In this document: piece after piece, positions 1,523 to 63,793 of the stretch
Layout: each line of letters begins with the position of its first letter
Numbering within the stretch: the first letter of the stretch is position 1
DNA from: Thermococcus chitonophagus
GTDB taxonomy: Archaea; Methanobacteriota_B; Thermococci; Thermococcales; Thermococcaceae
Reading direction: 5' to 3'
Assembly: GCF_002214605.1 (NCBI RefSeq)
Contig: NZ_CP015193.1
Span: forward strand, 1,406,978-1,470,977
Length of the DNA: 64,000 bases
Program-made: the position numbers and the translations under genes
Notes under the pieces: model-generated
Databases searched by the model: none
Told to the model about the DNA's origin: nothing
What the model saw: only the letters and a program-made list of their open reading frames with translations

Positions 1523-1615
1523 TTTATCACCTTGCATATGCACAAAATTTTCTGGGCAACAAAATTTTAGAGAAGAGGCTTATTAGGATTTCTTTTTGTT
1601 AGCCTAATCTAATTC

Positions 1616-16082: not shown

Positions 16083-16820
16083 ATGATATTGGGAAAGATT
16101 AAGAAGAAGGCCCTTAAGCTTATTGACGACCTTGAGATAGTGGACTTTTCCTTTGGCCTTCCTTATACATGGGTTCTCGTCGGGGGTAAAAAAGGCGGAG
16201 CATTGGGTGTGGCCATGACTTTGCCGGAGGAAGTTCAGAGGTACAGAAACTCGATAAAAGAAATTTCCCTTGAAGAGTTTATTGAGAAAGCAGACAGTAT
16301 AAACGTAATTGAAAGAACGCTTGGCCTCGCCGCGATAAATGCAGTCTCCCAGTACCACATAGACCTGAGCAACGCGGAGTGGGTAGATGTTCTTGAGCTT
16401 ATTCCAGAAAATGCTGAGAAGATAGCGATAATTGGCAACATGCCTCCTCTAGTGAAGGCCCTAAAAGATAAGTACGAGATTTATGTTTTTGAGAGGAACG
16501 CGAAGCTCTGGGATAAGGATACATACAGTGATACCCTCGAGTACCACCTATTGCCGGAGATGGATATAGTAATTGCAAGTGCCAGTTGCCTAGTTAATGC
16601 CACAATAGATATGCTACTTGAGAGAGCCAAAAAGGCAAAACTGTTTGTTTTAACGGGCCCGACAGGTCAACTACTTCCAGAGTTCCTTAAGGGAACAGTG
16701 GTAACTCACCTAGCGGCGATGAAAGTCATCAATATAGAAAAGGCACTCCTCGGTCTAAAGCTGGGGAGTTTTAAAGGATTCGAGGAGGGAAATAAAAAGT
16801 ACGTGGTAGAGGTGCCCTAA
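16083..16820 (+). CDS. DUF364/DUF4213 family protein, putative heavy-metal chelation
   Basis: About 245 residues starting MILGKIKKKALKLI; an in-frame ATG at 16056 lies too near the TATA element and is less likely. The N-part (LPYTWVLVGGKKGGALGVAMTL) and the C-part (IAIIGNMPPLVKALK; DIVIASASCLVNATIDMLLERA; VLTGPTGQLLPEFL) fit the two-domain DUF4213-DUF364 proteins, whose structures suggested a metal-binding or enolase-like role. Function not proven. The palindrome in its promoter joins it with the radical SAM and Fe-S ATPase genes. Its stop overlaps the next convergent gene by four bases. Confidence 0.85.
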   Translation: MILGKIKKKALKLIDDLEIVDFSFGLPYTWVLVGGKKGGALGVAMTLPEEVQRYRNSIKEISLEEFIEKADSINVIERTLGLAAINAVSQYHIDLSNAEWVDVLELIPENAEKIAIIGNMPPLVKALKDKYEIYVFERNAKLWDKDTYSDTLEYHLLPEMDIVIASASCLVNATIDMLLERAKKAKLFVLTGPTGQLLPEFLKGTVVTHLAAMKVINIEKALLGLKLGSFKGFEEGNKKYVVEVP

Positions 16821-17038
16821 AGGAGCTTTCTGAAGTAGCTCTTTAGCGCGGCCCAATTCAAGTAGATGTGAACCACAGAAAGGCCGAAGAATGCGAAGCC
16901 TAAATAGATGTGGAGTGTATCAGATACTTCCACTGGTAGCGAAGGAAAGAGCCTTCCTAAAAGCAGTATAGTTCCAGTTATACCTGTTATCAGCCACAGG
17001 AAGAATAAGACTATTGAAACGAACATCCTCAGTCTCAT
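16817..17038 (-). CDS. DUF4405-like small membrane protein
   Basis: 73 residues with two hydrophobic helices; the second carries DTLHIYLGFAFFGLSVVHIYLNW, with two histidines one helix apart as in cytochrome-b-type membrane proteins of the DUF4405 kind. It might bind haem or serve as a membrane anchor, but this is not shown. GGAGGGG precedes ATG. One base separates it from the secreted-protein gene upstream on the same strand, so they share a message. Confidence 0.75.
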   Translation of the reverse strand: MRLRMFVSIVLFFLWLITGITGTILLLGRLFPSLPVEVSDTLHIYLGFAFFGLSVVHIYLNWAALKSYFRKLL

Positions 17039-17039
17039 T

Positions 17040-17813
17040 TTATCCCCTCCTCAACGTTGTTCCATCTATCTTTATTTCTTCGGCCTTCCAAGTTCCCTCC
17101 TCGTAAGTTGCGACGACTTCAACGTACTCTCCGACCTTCAGCATTCCAAGGACATCCTTCCAGTTATAGCTTCCCCATCTGCCCCTAACGTAGATCTTCG
17201 TTCCGTTCACCACGAAGTACCTGAGCTCAACGTTTACTTCCTCTATTTTACCTTTGAAGGTTTTAGTAACATTTTCTAAAACTATTGATTGAGTTTGATT
17301 GGCCTCCACGAGTTCAGTTTGAGTTGGAGTCCCAATGTAGAATCCTACCGTGACCCTTTCCTCTGTTCCATAAGGACAGCCAGTTCCGTACTTAAAAACT
17401 ACGTCTATGCTCCCATTGCCTAAGACTTTAATTTTGTACTGTTTGAAGGCAGTATAAGGGTCTTCAAGCTTTGTCTCTGTCTCTTCGATAACTTCAACGT
17501 TCTTAGAATTCTCAACTAATATTTTCCAGTCTGAGTAAGGACAAGGTTGGGCATGCTTGAAGCGGACGGTGACATTTAGCGTTACAACCTTGCCGGGCTC
17601 ATCCACATAGGCCTTGGCAGGGACAACGCATAGAATATCTGCACCCTCATGGGATGTTGCTGTGCCTACGTAGTAAACCCCTCCAACAATCATTGTGCTG
17701 TTTTCCTGGGGTGTTATTGCTTCTATCTGCTTCTTCTCCGCTATCTTCACTATAAACGGAAGGGCTGTAATCAGGATAGCAAGGATTATCGATGCCACAA
17801 GCCCCCTTTTCAT
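17040..17813 (-). CDS. Secreted or membrane-anchored beta-rich protein, unknown function
   Basis: 257 residues from ATG 17813 (GGTGA five bases upstream); a longer frame to 17843 would run into the operator. It begins with an uncleaved-looking hydrophobic helix (LVASIILAILITALPFIV), then beta-rich extracytoplasmic sequence with Cys pairs (AQPCPYSDWK, GTGCPYGTEE) and a C-terminal OB-like segment (KIYVRGRWGSYNWKDVLGML; YVEVVATYEEGTWKAEEI). Family not recognised. A perfect palindrome ATGAATG-AC-CATTCAT lies in its promoter and resembles the formate operon operator, which suggests joint control by the TetR protein encoded nearby. Confidence 0.75.
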   Translation of the reverse strand: MKRGLVASIILAILITALPFIVKIAEKKQIEAITPQENSTMIVGGVYYVGTATSHEGADILCVVPAKAYVDEPGKVVTLNVTVRFKHAQPCPYSDWKILVENSKNVEVIEETETKLEDPYTAFKQYKIKVLGNGSIDVVFKYGTGCPYGTEERVTVGFYIGTPTQTELVEANQTQSIVLENVTKTFKGKIEEVNVELRYFVVNGTKIYVRGRWGSYNWKDVLGMLKVGEYVEVVATYEEGTWKAEEIKIDGTTLRRG

Positions 17814-17827
17814 GGGCTCACCTGTAG

Positions 17828-17843
17828 ATGAATGACCATTCAT
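17828..17843. promoter_or_regulatory. Palindrome ATGAATG-AC-CATTCAT, candidate TetR operator
   Basis: Seven-base perfect arms around AC, 15 bases upstream of the secreted-protein start. It shares the core TGAATGACCA with the sequence at 19375-19392 in front of fdhA. Confidence 0.6.
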
Positions 17844-17963
17844 TTTTAATAAACATTAGGGAATTGGGGCATTTATGTAACCATTTTAGTTTTACATCAA
17901 GTTATTTAGTTTACATAAACGCTTAAATTCAGTGCATATGCAAATGCTCCTCCGGGTGGTCTA

Positions 17964-18636
17964 ATGAAGTTAGCTAAACCTACTGTAATCTTGTACCGGC
18001 TGTTATCCTCTTAGGAGCAGGAGGCTCGCTGAGGGAGCTACCAGTGGATAGATGAGGGTACTCCGAGTTAGGATTTCTTACCAATATCTCAACACCTATC
18101 AGTGGCCTAGGAAGGTTTCAGAAAGCCTATGATTTCGTATTATAGCCTCCGGCTGGCTTAAAAATGGGGAAAAGATCGTGTTTCCCTTGACGAGCACGAC
18201 GCTGGGGTATTAGATGGTCACATAAAGGCAAACTTCATAAAGCCCGAAATCTGGGATGAGGCCATAGCCTTGGCAGACATGTTCCTGAGCAACCCTGCCG
18301 GAGAGCTGGGAACAATGATAGTTGGCTCTGCCCTAAACCTGCTGTTATTATCTCCCACGTACGGGAGGAAAATTCAGGAAAAAGATCAAGGAAACTCTCG
18401 CCATGGACAAGAGCAAAACCTACCTCTTCACCGTCAACACCGACATCTTTCCAGAATGGGTGAGTGAGTTGGAAGAGGCATCGGATAACCTGATGTTCAG
18501 CAGAATGGAAAGGCCAATGAGGCTTTTCTTGAGAATAGAAAGAATGAAGGAGGTTCCGTTCAAGAGGGGAGAATTTGAGGTATCGTTGCCCGAAGAAGTG
18601 CTAAGGATGATTAAGAAAGAGGCCGAAAGGGGATGA
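17964..18636 (+). pseudogene. Decayed gene, several stops and frameshifts
   Basis: A ribosome site GGGTGGT and ATG (17964) start a frame that stops after 16 codons. Coding sequence resumes as LDGHIKANFIKPEIWDEA, continuing through FLSNPAGELGTMIVG to SPTYGRK, then shifts frame near 18370 to FRKKIKETLAMDKSKTYLF and ends FEVSLPEEVLRMIKKEAERG at 18636. The C-part faintly recalls Thermococcales RecA/KaiC-like proteins of the DUF257 kind, but I cannot assign it. No intact product is expected. It lies between the secreted-protein gene and the TetR gene and fills most of this 865-base gap. Confidence 0.55.
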
Positions 18637-18717
18637 AAGTGCTAATTCCAGAAATAAAGAAAGTCTAGGTATAATTTATTAATATACCTTTATTTATATT
18701 TGTAGCTGGTGATCGCT

Positions 18718-19296
18718 TTGGACACCCGAGAAAAACTCCTGCACTCGGCCAAGAAACTCTTCGCAAGTAAGGGCTTCGACAGGGTAACGGTTGATGAGAT
18801 AGTTAAAGATGCAGGAGTAGCAAAGGGAACCTTCTACCTCTACTTCAAGAGAAAGGAGGACATAATAAGGGAAGTTGCGATTATGGCAATGCCCTTTCAG
18901 GCCTTGAGCGATGTTTTCAAGTCCGTTGATAGGGAAAGCTTCAGAAATCTTGGGGATTACCTAAGGTTCCTGGGAGAGAAGTTCTTCGAGCACTACTCCG
19001 ACAGGGAGCTCGCGTGCATATTCTTCCATACAGTCTCAATAAAGAGTAGCATTACATCCCTAAACGACCTCCACAGGGAGCTGTGTTCTAAGTTAATCAA
19101 GGAGGGAACAAGGAGAGTTCTTGAGTTCGTAAACATCGAGGAGAAAAAGGCCGAGGTTCTCTTCAGAACTTTCCTTGGGAGCCTGCTCCACTACCTATAC
19201 TCTGAGGACTGTAGCCCAATAGACCACAAAGAATACTTGGAAAACCTCGTTCAGATTTTAACGAATTCGATTAACAATTCCACTAGCAGTAAATGA
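18718..19296 (+). CDS. TetR/AcrR family transcription regulator
   Basis: 192 residues starting at TTG 18718, four bases after GGTGA; GTG 18709 is the alternative. The N-terminal TetR helix-turn-helix is clear: KLLHSAKKLFASKGFDRVTV, DEIVKDAGVAKGTFYLYFKRKEDII. The C-terminal helical ligand domain is generic with several cysteines (ELACIFFH, LHRELCSKL, SEDCSPI). It sits directly before the formate operon. Two similar palindromes, one in front of fdhA and one in front of the secreted-protein gene, are its likely operators. Ligand unknown. Confidence 0.93.
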   Translation: MDTREKLLHSAKKLFASKGFDRVTVDEIVKDAGVAKGTFYLYFKRKEDIIREVAIMAMPFQALSDVFKSVDRESFRNLGDYLRFLGEKFFEHYSDRELACIFFHTVSIKSSITSLNDLHRELCSKLIKEGTRRVLEFVNIEEKKAEVLFRTFLGSLLHYLYSEDCSPIDHKEYLENLVQILTNSINNSTSSK

Positions 19297-19345
19297 ACCA
19301 AATTAACCTTTGATGTTCTAAGGTGTTCATCCTTGCATATAAATC

Positions 19346-19356
19346 CGAAAAATATT
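19346..19356 (+). promoter_or_regulatory. TATA element of the formate dehydrogenase operon
   Basis: AAAATATTTAAAAT around 19349-19361 is a strong archaeal TATA box about 55-60 bases before the fdhA ATG; the TetR-like operator follows about 15-20 bases downstream, near the expected transcription start, which suits repression. Confidence 0.5.
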
Positions 19357-19374
19357 TAAAATTGCTCATCGAAC

Positions 19375-19392
19375 ACTGAATGACCAGTCAGT
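19375..19392. promoter_or_regulatory. Candidate TetR operator in front of fdhA
   Basis: ACTGAATGACCAGTCAGT: five-base perfect outer arms (ACTGA/TCAGT) around the core ATGACCAG. The core TGAATGACCA is identical to that of the palindrome at 17828-17843. Position downstream of the TATA box suggests repression. Confidence 0.6.
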
Positions 19393-19414
19393 CATAAAAT
19401 TCAAGGTGGTAAGC

Positions 19415-21463
19415 ATGGAGGAACTCGTGCCAGTTGTATGTCCGTGGTGCTCCGTTGGGTGTAGGCTGTACATAGTCTCAGTAAACGGCCATCCCAGAAA
19501 GATCGAGTGGGATTACGATCACCCAAACACACCAAACAAGGGTAAGCTATGCCCCAAGGGCGTTGCCTCCTACCAATTCACCATAAGCCCGGACAGGCTT
19601 AAGAAACCCCTAATTAAGAGGAACGGTAAGTTTGAGGAGGTTTCTTGGGAGGAGGCAATAAGGTACGTTGCCCAGAAGTTTAAGGAAATTATCGAGGAGC
19701 ATGGGCCGGAGGCCTTAGCCTTCCTGGGGAGCGAGAGATGTTCCCTCGAAGATAACTACGTTCTCCAGAAGCTTGCTAGGGCCTTGGGAACGAACAATGT
19801 AGAATTTGCTGGAAGGCTCTGTCAGTCCTCAAACTTCGTCGCTAGGAGCAAGGTGTTTGGGAGCCCCGCGCAGACTAATCCCTTCGAGGATATAGTTAAG
19901 TCCAAGGTCATCTTAGTCTGGGGCTACAACCCTGCCGAAACCAATCCCGTTCTCTTCGGTCAGTACTTCGAGAAAGCCCTAGACAACGGAGCGAAGATAA
20001 TAGTAGTTGATCCAATAAAGACTAAGACGGCCAAGTTTGCCGACATTCACCTCCAGCCCTACCCAGGAACGGATCTTGCGGTTGCCTTGGCGATGCTCAA
20101 TTACATAATAAAGAACGAGCTCTACGACAGGAAGTTTGTTGAGGAAAGAACGGACAACTTCGAGGAGCTCGCAAAGTCCGTGGAGGAGTACACTCCAGAG
20201 TGGGCCGAGAAGGTAAGCGAAGTGCCGGCGGGGATGATAAAGAGGGCAGCGGAGCTCTTAGCTACGGGAGGCAACGCAACTATAGTGCTTAACGAGGGGG
20301 TGAACCAGCACGCGAATGGAACGATGACTGCTTTGGCAATAGCTAACTTGATCGCGATAACTGGAAACATAGGGAAGGAAGGAGTGTTCTCAGGAGTAAT
20401 TCCTGGGGCCCACTGTGGCCTCTGTGCTGCGGTTCCTGGGGTTAACTGCGCTCAGCTCCCTGGGCCAGTCCCGCTGAATGAGGAAAATGCGAAGAAGTTC
20501 AGCGAACTCTGGGGATTTGAAGTTCCGAGAAAGCCCGGCCTCCACTATCAGGCTATATTCAAGGCCATGGCCGAGGGAAAGATGAAGGGAATATTTATCA
20601 TGGGTCAAAATCCGGCCAGATCCCTTGCAAACTCAAGCTTAATTGAGGAAGCCCTTGAGAAGGCCTTCGTCGTCGTAAGCGACATCTTCCCGACGGAAAC
20701 AACGAAGTTCGCTGACGTAATACTACCAGCGGCAAGCTGGTATGAGAAGACGGGAACCGTGATAACCCAGAACAGGAGGGTAATGAGGAGCTTCAAGGCA
20801 GTTAAACCGCCGGGAGAGGCAAAGCCCGACTGGGAGATACTTGTCATGTTGGCCAGGGAACTCGGCGTTGGGGAGTACTTCAACTACTCGAGCGTCGACG
20901 ACATCCTTAGGGAAATCAACAGGGCAATTCCTGCCCTTAAAGGAGCAACACCCGAAAGGCTGAACTCAAATTTGGAGGGCTGCTTCTACCCATGCCCAGA
21001 TGAAAAGTCGGAAACACCGAGGCTGTTCTTGAATGGCTTCCCGACTAAGACCGGGAGGGCCCAGCTTGCACCGGTTAAGTGGATCCAGCCGGGAGAAGTT
21101 CCGGACGAGGAGTATCCGCTGTGGTTGACCAACTTCAGGCAGGTGGGTCACTTCCACACGGGAACGATGAGCATGAGGAGCAAGAGCCTGATCAAGAGGT
21201 GGCCAGAGGGCTTCCTGATGATAAACCCAGAGGATGCCAAAGCACTCGGGATAAGGGATGGAGACAGGGTTAGGGTTGAGACGAGGAGGGGTTCTCTCGT
21301 TGTTAGGGCCATGGTTACGGATAGGATAAGGAAGGGTGTTGTCGCGATGCCCTGGCACTGGGGAGTTAATTTCCTCACGAAAGATGATGCGATAGATGAA
21401 TTCTCCAAGATGCCAGAGCTGAAGGCAGTAACCTGCAGGGTCACCAAGGAGGTGGTAGAATGA
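19415..21463 (+). CDS. fdhA: Formate dehydrogenase alpha subunit (Mo/W bis-MGD)
   Basis: 682 residues from ATG 19415, after AGGTGGT. N-terminal 4Fe-4S ligands Cys9, Cys12, Cys16 and Cys46, then molybdopterin oxidoreductase domains and a C-terminal MGD-binding domain (RQVGHFHTGTMSMRSKSL; RVRVETRRGSLVVRAMV). The probable metal ligand is Cys136 in GRLCQSSNF; most formate dehydrogenases have His after this Cys/Sec, here it is Gln. The enzyme would oxidise formate to CO2 and pass electrons through the next gene's ferredoxin-like subunit to the hydrogenase. First gene of a long operon that ends with mobA, needed for its guanine-dinucleotide cofactor. Confidence 0.92.
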   Translation: MEELVPVVCPWCSVGCRLYIVSVNGHPRKIEWDYDHPNTPNKGKLCPKGVASYQFTISPDRLKKPLIKRNGKFEEVSWEEAIRYVAQKFKEIIEEHGPEALAFLGSERCSLEDNYVLQKLARALGTNNVEFAGRLCQSSNFVARSKVFGSPAQTNPFEDIVKSKVILVWGYNPAETNPVLFGQYFEKALDNGAKIIVVDPIKTKTAKFADIHLQPYPGTDLAVALAMLNYIIKNELYDRKFVEERTDNFEELAKSVEEYTPEWAEKVSEVPAGMIKRAAELLATGGNATIVLNEGVNQHANGTMTALAIANLIAITGNIGKEGVFSGVIPGAHCGLCAAVPGVNCAQLPGPVPLNEENAKKFSELWGFEVPRKPGLHYQAIFKAMAEGKMKGIFIMGQNPARSLANSSLIEEALEKAFVVVSDIFPTETTKFADVILPAASWYEKTGTVITQNRRVMRSFKAVKPPGEAKPDWEILVMLARELGVGEYFNYSSVDDILREINRAIPALKGATPERLNSNLEGCFYPCPDEKSETPRLFLNGFPTKTGRAQLAPVKWIQPGEVPDEEYPLWLTNFRQVGHFHTGTMSMRSKSLIKRWPEGFLMINPEDAKALGIRDGDRVRVETRRGSLVVRAMVTDRIRKGVVAMPWHWGVNFLTKDDAIDEFSKMPELKAVTCRVTKEVVE

Positions 21464-62649: not shown

Positions 62650-63793
62650 ATGGATTATGTTAAGCGTTTCTACATCTCCAGCCTACTTCATTTAACGTTT
62701 TATTCTGGCTTTTACCTCATCTACCTCCAGTCGCTTTCATTATCAAAGTCCCAGATTGGGTTTTTGATAGGGCTTTCCTTGATTCTCGTTGCCCTCTTTG
62801 AGATTCCAACTGGAATTGTCGCAGACAAGATATCAAAAAAGACTAGCGTCCTTCTGTCAAAGATACTTCTGATCCCAGGAACGCTACTCCTCTACTTGGC
62901 TAACTCATTTTGGCATGTTCTTTTTGCAACTATATTCAACTCCCTCGCAGTAGCATTTCTTACTGGAGCGGAGACTGGTTGGCTCTACGAACTCCTTTCC
63001 CGGAATGGAAGGAGAGATGAGTATCCAAAGATCTACGGTAGGCTTAGAGCATTCGAAATGGCAGGTAGCTTCCTGGGTGCCACCCTGGGAGGGTTCATGG
63101 CAAGGCTCTTAGGCATGAGGGTGACAATTCTGCTGAGCGTCCCCTTCATCTTGATGTCCTTTTTGATAGTGCTCACAGTACCTTCCGATACCGCAAAGAG
63201 TAGGCTTCCTTATGGTTATCACCTAATAGAGACTTTTAGATTTCTGAGAAGCTCACGCGTGTTAACACTCCTCTTTGCATATGCAAGCTTAATAGGGCTA
63301 TCGCTGGCAAGCTTTACCTCCTTCATGCAACTCTACTTCTACGAATTTATGCCTTCAATACTTGGAGTATCTTGGCTTTTCGGCCTTTACACGCTAATCA
63401 ACGGAATTTCGTGGTACGTTGACGTTGGTGAAAATCGTAGGAAGGTTTTGTACATATACTCCCCAGTTTTAATTCCAGGTTTAACGGTATTGGCTGGACT
63501 AAGCTCTTGGTTCGGCTTTTTAACTTTGGTGTTGGGAAGTTTAATCTTTGCCCAAGCATTTAAGGAATGGCAGAGGGTATTCCAGGGAGCAATCCCCGAT
63601 GATAAGAGGGCAACTCTTGGCTCATTTTACTCATTATTCGCGTCTTTGATCAACGGAACTTATATCTCCCTCCTAGGAACAATACTTGGGAAAAATTGGA
63701 ATAAAAGCGGGGCTCGTGGTAGTTTCACTGATGTTCCTGGGGGCCGGGCTCGTGGTTCGTAAGCACGTCCCTATGGAACAGCCAGTAGTATAG
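62650..63793 (+). pseudogene. MFS transporter with a C-terminal frameshift in an A5 run
   Basis: About 12-helix major facilitator protein: IGFLIGLSLILVALFEIPTGIVADKI (motif-A region), EMAGSFLGATLGGFMARLLGM. The frame stops at 63762 with a hydrophilic tail that does not look like protein. Dropping one A from 63691-63695 changes the end to GKIGIKAGLVVVSLMFLGAG and LVVRKHVPMEQPVV, a natural last helix, stopping at 63793. Likely an inactivating shift or an assembly error; only the last helix is affected. Confidence 0.75.

Follow-up and report, generated by a model that had tools for sequence, protein, structure and literature searches.

Two rare palindromes in a 64,000-nucleotide stretch of the Thermococcus chitonophagus genome (hereafter the window) are, with high probability, operators of the TetR-family regulator encoded between them, which would repress the formate hydrogenlyase (fhl) operon and, in this genome, a DUF5666-DUF4405 gene pair. 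The preliminary description of this DNA had reported symmetric sequences at 17828–17843 (ATGAATGACCATTCAT) and 19375–19392 (ACTGAATGACCAGTCAGT) flanking a tetR gene. Both prove to be inverted repeats placed in promoters, and an open reading frame with a Pfam TetR_N match, ending at 19296, lies between them.

The DUF5666 site contains a perfect 6+2+6 inverted repeat, TGAATG-AC-CATTCA (17829–17842), whose arms reach 7 bp each when the flanking A/T is counted. At the fdhA site the corresponding repeat, TGAATG-AC-CAGTCA (19377–19390, TGAATGACCAGTCA), has a single asymmetric pair and is overlapped by a second repeat, TGACCAGTCAGTCA (19381–19394), in a frame shifted by 4 bp, the two together forming a putative operator at 19377–19394 on the + strand. 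The palindrome is remarkable because the 1.96 Mb genome matches TGAMTGACYAKTCA exactly at these two sites and nowhere else, and the backwards control has no match. We rejected the 10-mer shared by the two sites as evidence by itself, since it recurs by chance: it occurs five times in the genome, and its third copy in the window (position 1310) is intragenic, lacks symmetry and lies in a gene that, from its translation, presumably encodes a cation-efflux protein. The palindrome, unlike the 10-mer, is strong evidence. Its relaxed form, TGAMYRNNYRKTCA, is found at three further places in the genome, each within an open reading frame; outside genes, just the fdhA and DUF5666 sites match. A wider regulon in this genome was rejected because these remaining relaxed palindromes are all intragenic.

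The fdhA gene (19415–21463, + strand; TIGR01591 above the curated cutoff) encodes the formate dehydrogenase alpha subunit and is the first gene of the fhl operon, followed by fdhB-like, hydrogenase and antiporter-type genes. Its promoter consists, in order, of a TATA-like element, ATATTTAA (19352–19359, + strand), the palindrome, a AAGGTGGT ribosome-binding site and the ATG at 19415, and almost every orthologous promoter likewise has a TATA-like element ahead of the operator. The palindrome begins about 17 nt past ATATTTAA, in agreement with the earlier placement of the fdhA site just downstream of its TATA box. As the centre of the TATA box lies about 27 nt upstream of the start site (PMC5316973), fdhA transcription is predicted to start at about 19383, inside the palindrome, a position that fits a repressor. 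The leftward DUF5666 promoter is arranged similarly, with a TATA-like element recognised by inspection (TTTATTAA, 17846–17853, − strand), the palindrome, AGGTGA and the ATG at 17813, and a predicted start near 17823. We infer that both palindromes are placed where a bound protein would block initiation. One orthologous fdhA promoter (G016, L074:9270–9360) is without the TATA-like element usual among its relatives and has an additional palindrome, TGACCATATGGTCA, some 84 nt ahead of the start.

Conservation of the motif upstream of fdhA, proposed earlier as a check, was borne out. A protein search of 94 Thermococcaceae genomes identified TetR (E ≤ 1e-20) in 39, comprising this genome, which by its gene content and relatives appears to be a Pyrococcus-like member of the family, and 38 relatives. 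In 39 of 39 TetR genomes, which are related and hence not independent trials, a TGAMYR-N2-YRKTCA palindrome ends about 20–26 nt before the fdhA start codon, most commonly in the form TGACTGGTCAGTCA or TGACTAGTCAGTCA. None of 17 control fdhA genes without an adjacent TetR (the second copy in G026, which has no tetR beside it, and 16 loci from TetR-less genomes) has the palindrome. The site is kept where TetR identity falls as low as 36%, and also in G001, whose inverted fdh operon has tetR at its far end, about 15 kb away. Among 81 genomes compared, an fdhA of at least about 60% identity occurs in 14, and precisely these 14 have TetR (E < 1e-20). The 497 kb of sequence scanned contain 100 relaxed matches; 94 of them fall inside promoter windows totalling 13.5 kb, and of the six outside, four precede tetR at loci with no detected DUF302 gene. 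A 14-bp match preserved among promoters this divergent far exceeds the background.

The regulator itself (18718–19296, + strand) is predicted to be 192 aa long and to start at TTG 18718, which orthologue alignment favours over GTG 18709. Its 38 homologues in Thermococcaceae lie next to fdhA or close to it, and its TetR_N match (E = 1.4e-16) is an N-terminal TetR-type helix-turn-helix at residues 7–53 (PF00440, 60.5 bits against a cutoff of 24). Its best PDB sequence matches are the TetR-family entries 1z77/2id6 (E about 6e-11), and an AlphaFold single-sequence model has a mean pLDDT of 53. In keeping with the family, the conserved palindrome would provide a palindromic operator in the promoter of the neighbouring target in each of the 39 genomes. 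The protein falls outside the FadR-type (acyl-CoA) regulators, scoring 48.4 bits against a cutoff of 200 for NF053878. A scan of genome contigs with TetR gave one match, a distant one. Cys123 is conserved without exception in the 39 proteins, and 38 of them have a further cysteine (Cys165 or its equivalent) about 42–44 residues on.

Palindromes also occur directly upstream of tetR in 33 of the 39 genomes (29 exact, four with one mismatch), which points to autoregulation; this genome, G003, G006, G022, G038 and G101 have no site directly upstream of tetR. A DUF302 gene precedes tetR in 20 genomes and carries the site upstream, exactly in 19 and with a single mismatch in one. We rejected the idea of a conserved gene upstream of tetR, because what is found there varies (DUF302, a membrane protein, an HTH protein or remnants); a 155-aa open reading frame at this place in G006 is spurious and spans deletion remnants. 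Genome-wide scans of 12 relatives placed every match but one at the tetR-fhl locus, and on these grounds the common regulon is taken to be a small, local one made up of fhl, tetR and no more than one accessory gene. Because the site is co-conserved with TetR, absent at fdhA genes without TetR and present before tetR and the DUF302 gene, it is very likely that TetR binds it and represses the fhl operon. Recognition of the palindromes by a DNA-binding protein other than the adjacent TetR is highly improbable, given their strict co-occurrence with TetR, the sites at tetR promoters and the whole-genome scans, which confine the site to the tetR-fhl locus.

As we picture it, a TetR dimer bound between the TATA box and the transcription start would block initiation of the fhl operon. 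Two dimers might bind at fdhA, where the repeats overlap with the 4 bp shift, and in this genome TetR would also cover the DUF5666-DUF4405 promoter. A signal would bind the C-terminal domain and release the protein from DNA. A TetR-family protein could act as an activator instead. The mechanism proposed here is that of an ordinary TetR repressor, in which the operator and the targets are new and the kind is known.

SurR, a regulator of hydrogenase operons in Thermococcales, belongs to a protein family different from that of TetR. The present system resembles it as a hydrogenase-gene regulator with a possible link to sulfur and differs in that SurR recognises GTTn3AAC, and a 2023 review found no SurR site at Group 2–4 operons (PMC10025317). 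The same review reported the linkage of TetR/AcrR genes to fhl operons, called the mechanism unknown, and stated that the regulation of Group 2–5 formate dehydrogenase genes of Thermococci is unknown (PMC10025317). In its Group 4, tetR precedes, at a short distance and in the same orientation, an fhl operon that has no formate transporter gene (PMC10025317); here tetR ends at 19296, fdhA starts at 19415 in the same direction and the operon genes follow, and the two are very probably the same system. The review gives gene linkage only, to which operator, autoregulation and accessory targets are added here, and our literature search found no published operator for an fhl-linked TetR. FadR of Sulfolobus acidocaldarius, going by its published description, is likewise an archaeal repressor of the TetR family that has few sites and acts on a single local gene cluster, with a 16-bp dyad motif and both single-dimer and dimer-of-dimers binding; it differs in controlling fatty-acid genes and responding to acyl-CoA (PMC6449355). 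QacR-type operators, as cited in that paper (PMC6449355), similarly have two overlapping inverted repeats that could take up two dimers; the overlap at fdhA is a feature of the sequence. The question of Group 2–5 regulation now has a candidate operator, a candidate regulator, a short target list and an argument against formate as inducer. The fhl operons are one H2-forming route of hyperthermophilic archaea.

The preliminary description envisaged a ligand-controlled TetR repressor of formate hydrogenlyase and, through the expression assay it proposed, implied formate as the ligand. The repressor part is supported by an operator conserved in every TetR genome and by its promoter position; formate as ligand is not supported, published expression of these operons being lower on formate in two Thermococcus species. 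For one of them, we take G087, in which tetR and fdhA lie near 250 kb, to be T. onnurineus NA1, where tetR is predicted to be TON_0282, and the fdh1 cluster of this strain is therefore presumably the TetR-linked one by cluster matching. The fdh1 cluster (Hyg4-I) is expressed less on formate or on CO than in a rich medium with sulfur (PMC5316973), and the Fdh1A and Fdh1B proteins were detected in sulfur-grown cells only, while some maturation proteins of the wider cluster were down on sulfur in the same proteomic comparison (PMC4463584). In Thermococcus paralvinellae, expression fell on formate (PMC10025317). The published media differ in several ways, so that these data argue against formate and do not identify an inducer; the inducing signal is probably not formate. 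We set aside the T. litoralis fdh-mhy operon as a comparator, as it probably belongs to another group, and rejected the metal-stress induction in T. gammatolerans as evidence because it concerns an operon with a formate transporter and not the TetR-linked one. The two conserved cysteines of TetR make a thiol, sulfur or redox cue a possible signal; an amino-acid-derived metabolite is another possibility. A fuller scheme, in which TetR would be a cysteine-based sensor of sulfur or redox state controlling an fhl operon run in peptide/sulfur growth and not on formate, together with DUF302 in Thermococcus and DUF5666-DUF4405 in this lineage, is doubtful as a whole.

The DUF5666 gene (17040–17813, − strand; PF18914, E = 4.2e-7) encodes a probably exported protein, with a probable ATG at 17813 after the AGGTGA ribosome-binding site, and is probably co-transcribed with the gene for a small DUF4405 membrane protein (16817–17038, − strand; PF14358, E = 1.3e-6). 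The pair is also conserved elsewhere in the Thermococcaceae, where radical-SAM, NifX-like or DUF364 genes are often nearby. The earlier suggestion that a secreted protein and its DUF4405 partner are tied to TetR gains from the perfect palindrome in the right promoter position and loses from the other genomes: no intact DUF5666 homologue with readable upstream sequence has a TetR-type site before it, including those in the TetR genomes G016, G018, G026 and G048. In the two closest relatives, G003 and G006, the DUF5666 and DUF4405 genes are damaged fragments and the palindrome-bearing stretch is deleted; these remnants (G006 L064:7740–8420; G003 L065:11690–12400) accompany an intact tetR and fdhA operator. 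The putative second operator is thus specific to this genome, plausibly through lineage-specific capture of the pair by the repressor, the reading we prefer, or as a relic.

One alternative is that only the fdhA site works as a TetR operator, the DUF5666 palindrome being a relic or a chance occurrence and DUF5666 being controlled otherwise, for example by a factor reading GTGCATATGCAA at 17932. The absence of a TetR-type site at every other DUF5666 gene examined favours it, as does the presence of GTGCATATGCAC before DUF5666/NifX-like, Mrp-type ATPase and SufC-like genes in Pyrococcus; it is nevertheless unlikely, because a perfect palindrome with the same core lies between TATA and ATG, 0.9 kb from tetR, and the lack of any further exact match in 1.96 Mb makes a chance origin very unlikely. 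Another alternative, which we regard as quite improbable, takes the 17828 site as originally the operator of a rightward unit (a decayed gene plus tetR) that serves autoregulation and not DUF5666. Many relatives do have the site before a DUF302 gene upstream of tetR and before tetR, and the DNA at about 18.0–18.6 kb resembles gene remnants. Against this, the site abuts the TATA element and ATG of the leftward DUF5666 gene, the nearest plausible rightward start codon is about 120 nt further on, and G003 and G006 likewise have no site directly before tetR. Control of DUF5666 by TetR remains the reading we favour and is fairly probable, and the DUF5666-DUF4405 pair appears to have joined the regulon in this lineage.

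The DNA between the DUF5666 promoter and tetR (17965–18650) consists of apparent decayed-gene remnants, including a 77-aa open reading frame (18403–18636) of which just the final part is retained in G003 and G006. In DUF4405 homologues two histidines spaced 14 residues apart are invariant, and there is a weak match to proteins of the cytochrome b561 type, which makes a small haem-binding membrane protein possible. The rare palindrome GTGCATATGCAA upstream of DUF5666 (17932–17943) is common to other genes in relatives. KTGCATATGCAM occurs at three places in the genome, all in the window (1532–1543, 17932–17943 and 63275–63286), the copy at 63275 being apparently intragenic, and a palindrome of this type also precedes a probable cation-efflux gene here. 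Based on this gene and on those downstream of GTGCATATGCAC in Pyrococcus, all named from their translations, KTGCATATGCAM/GTGCATATGCAC may be the operator of an Fe-S or metal regulon.
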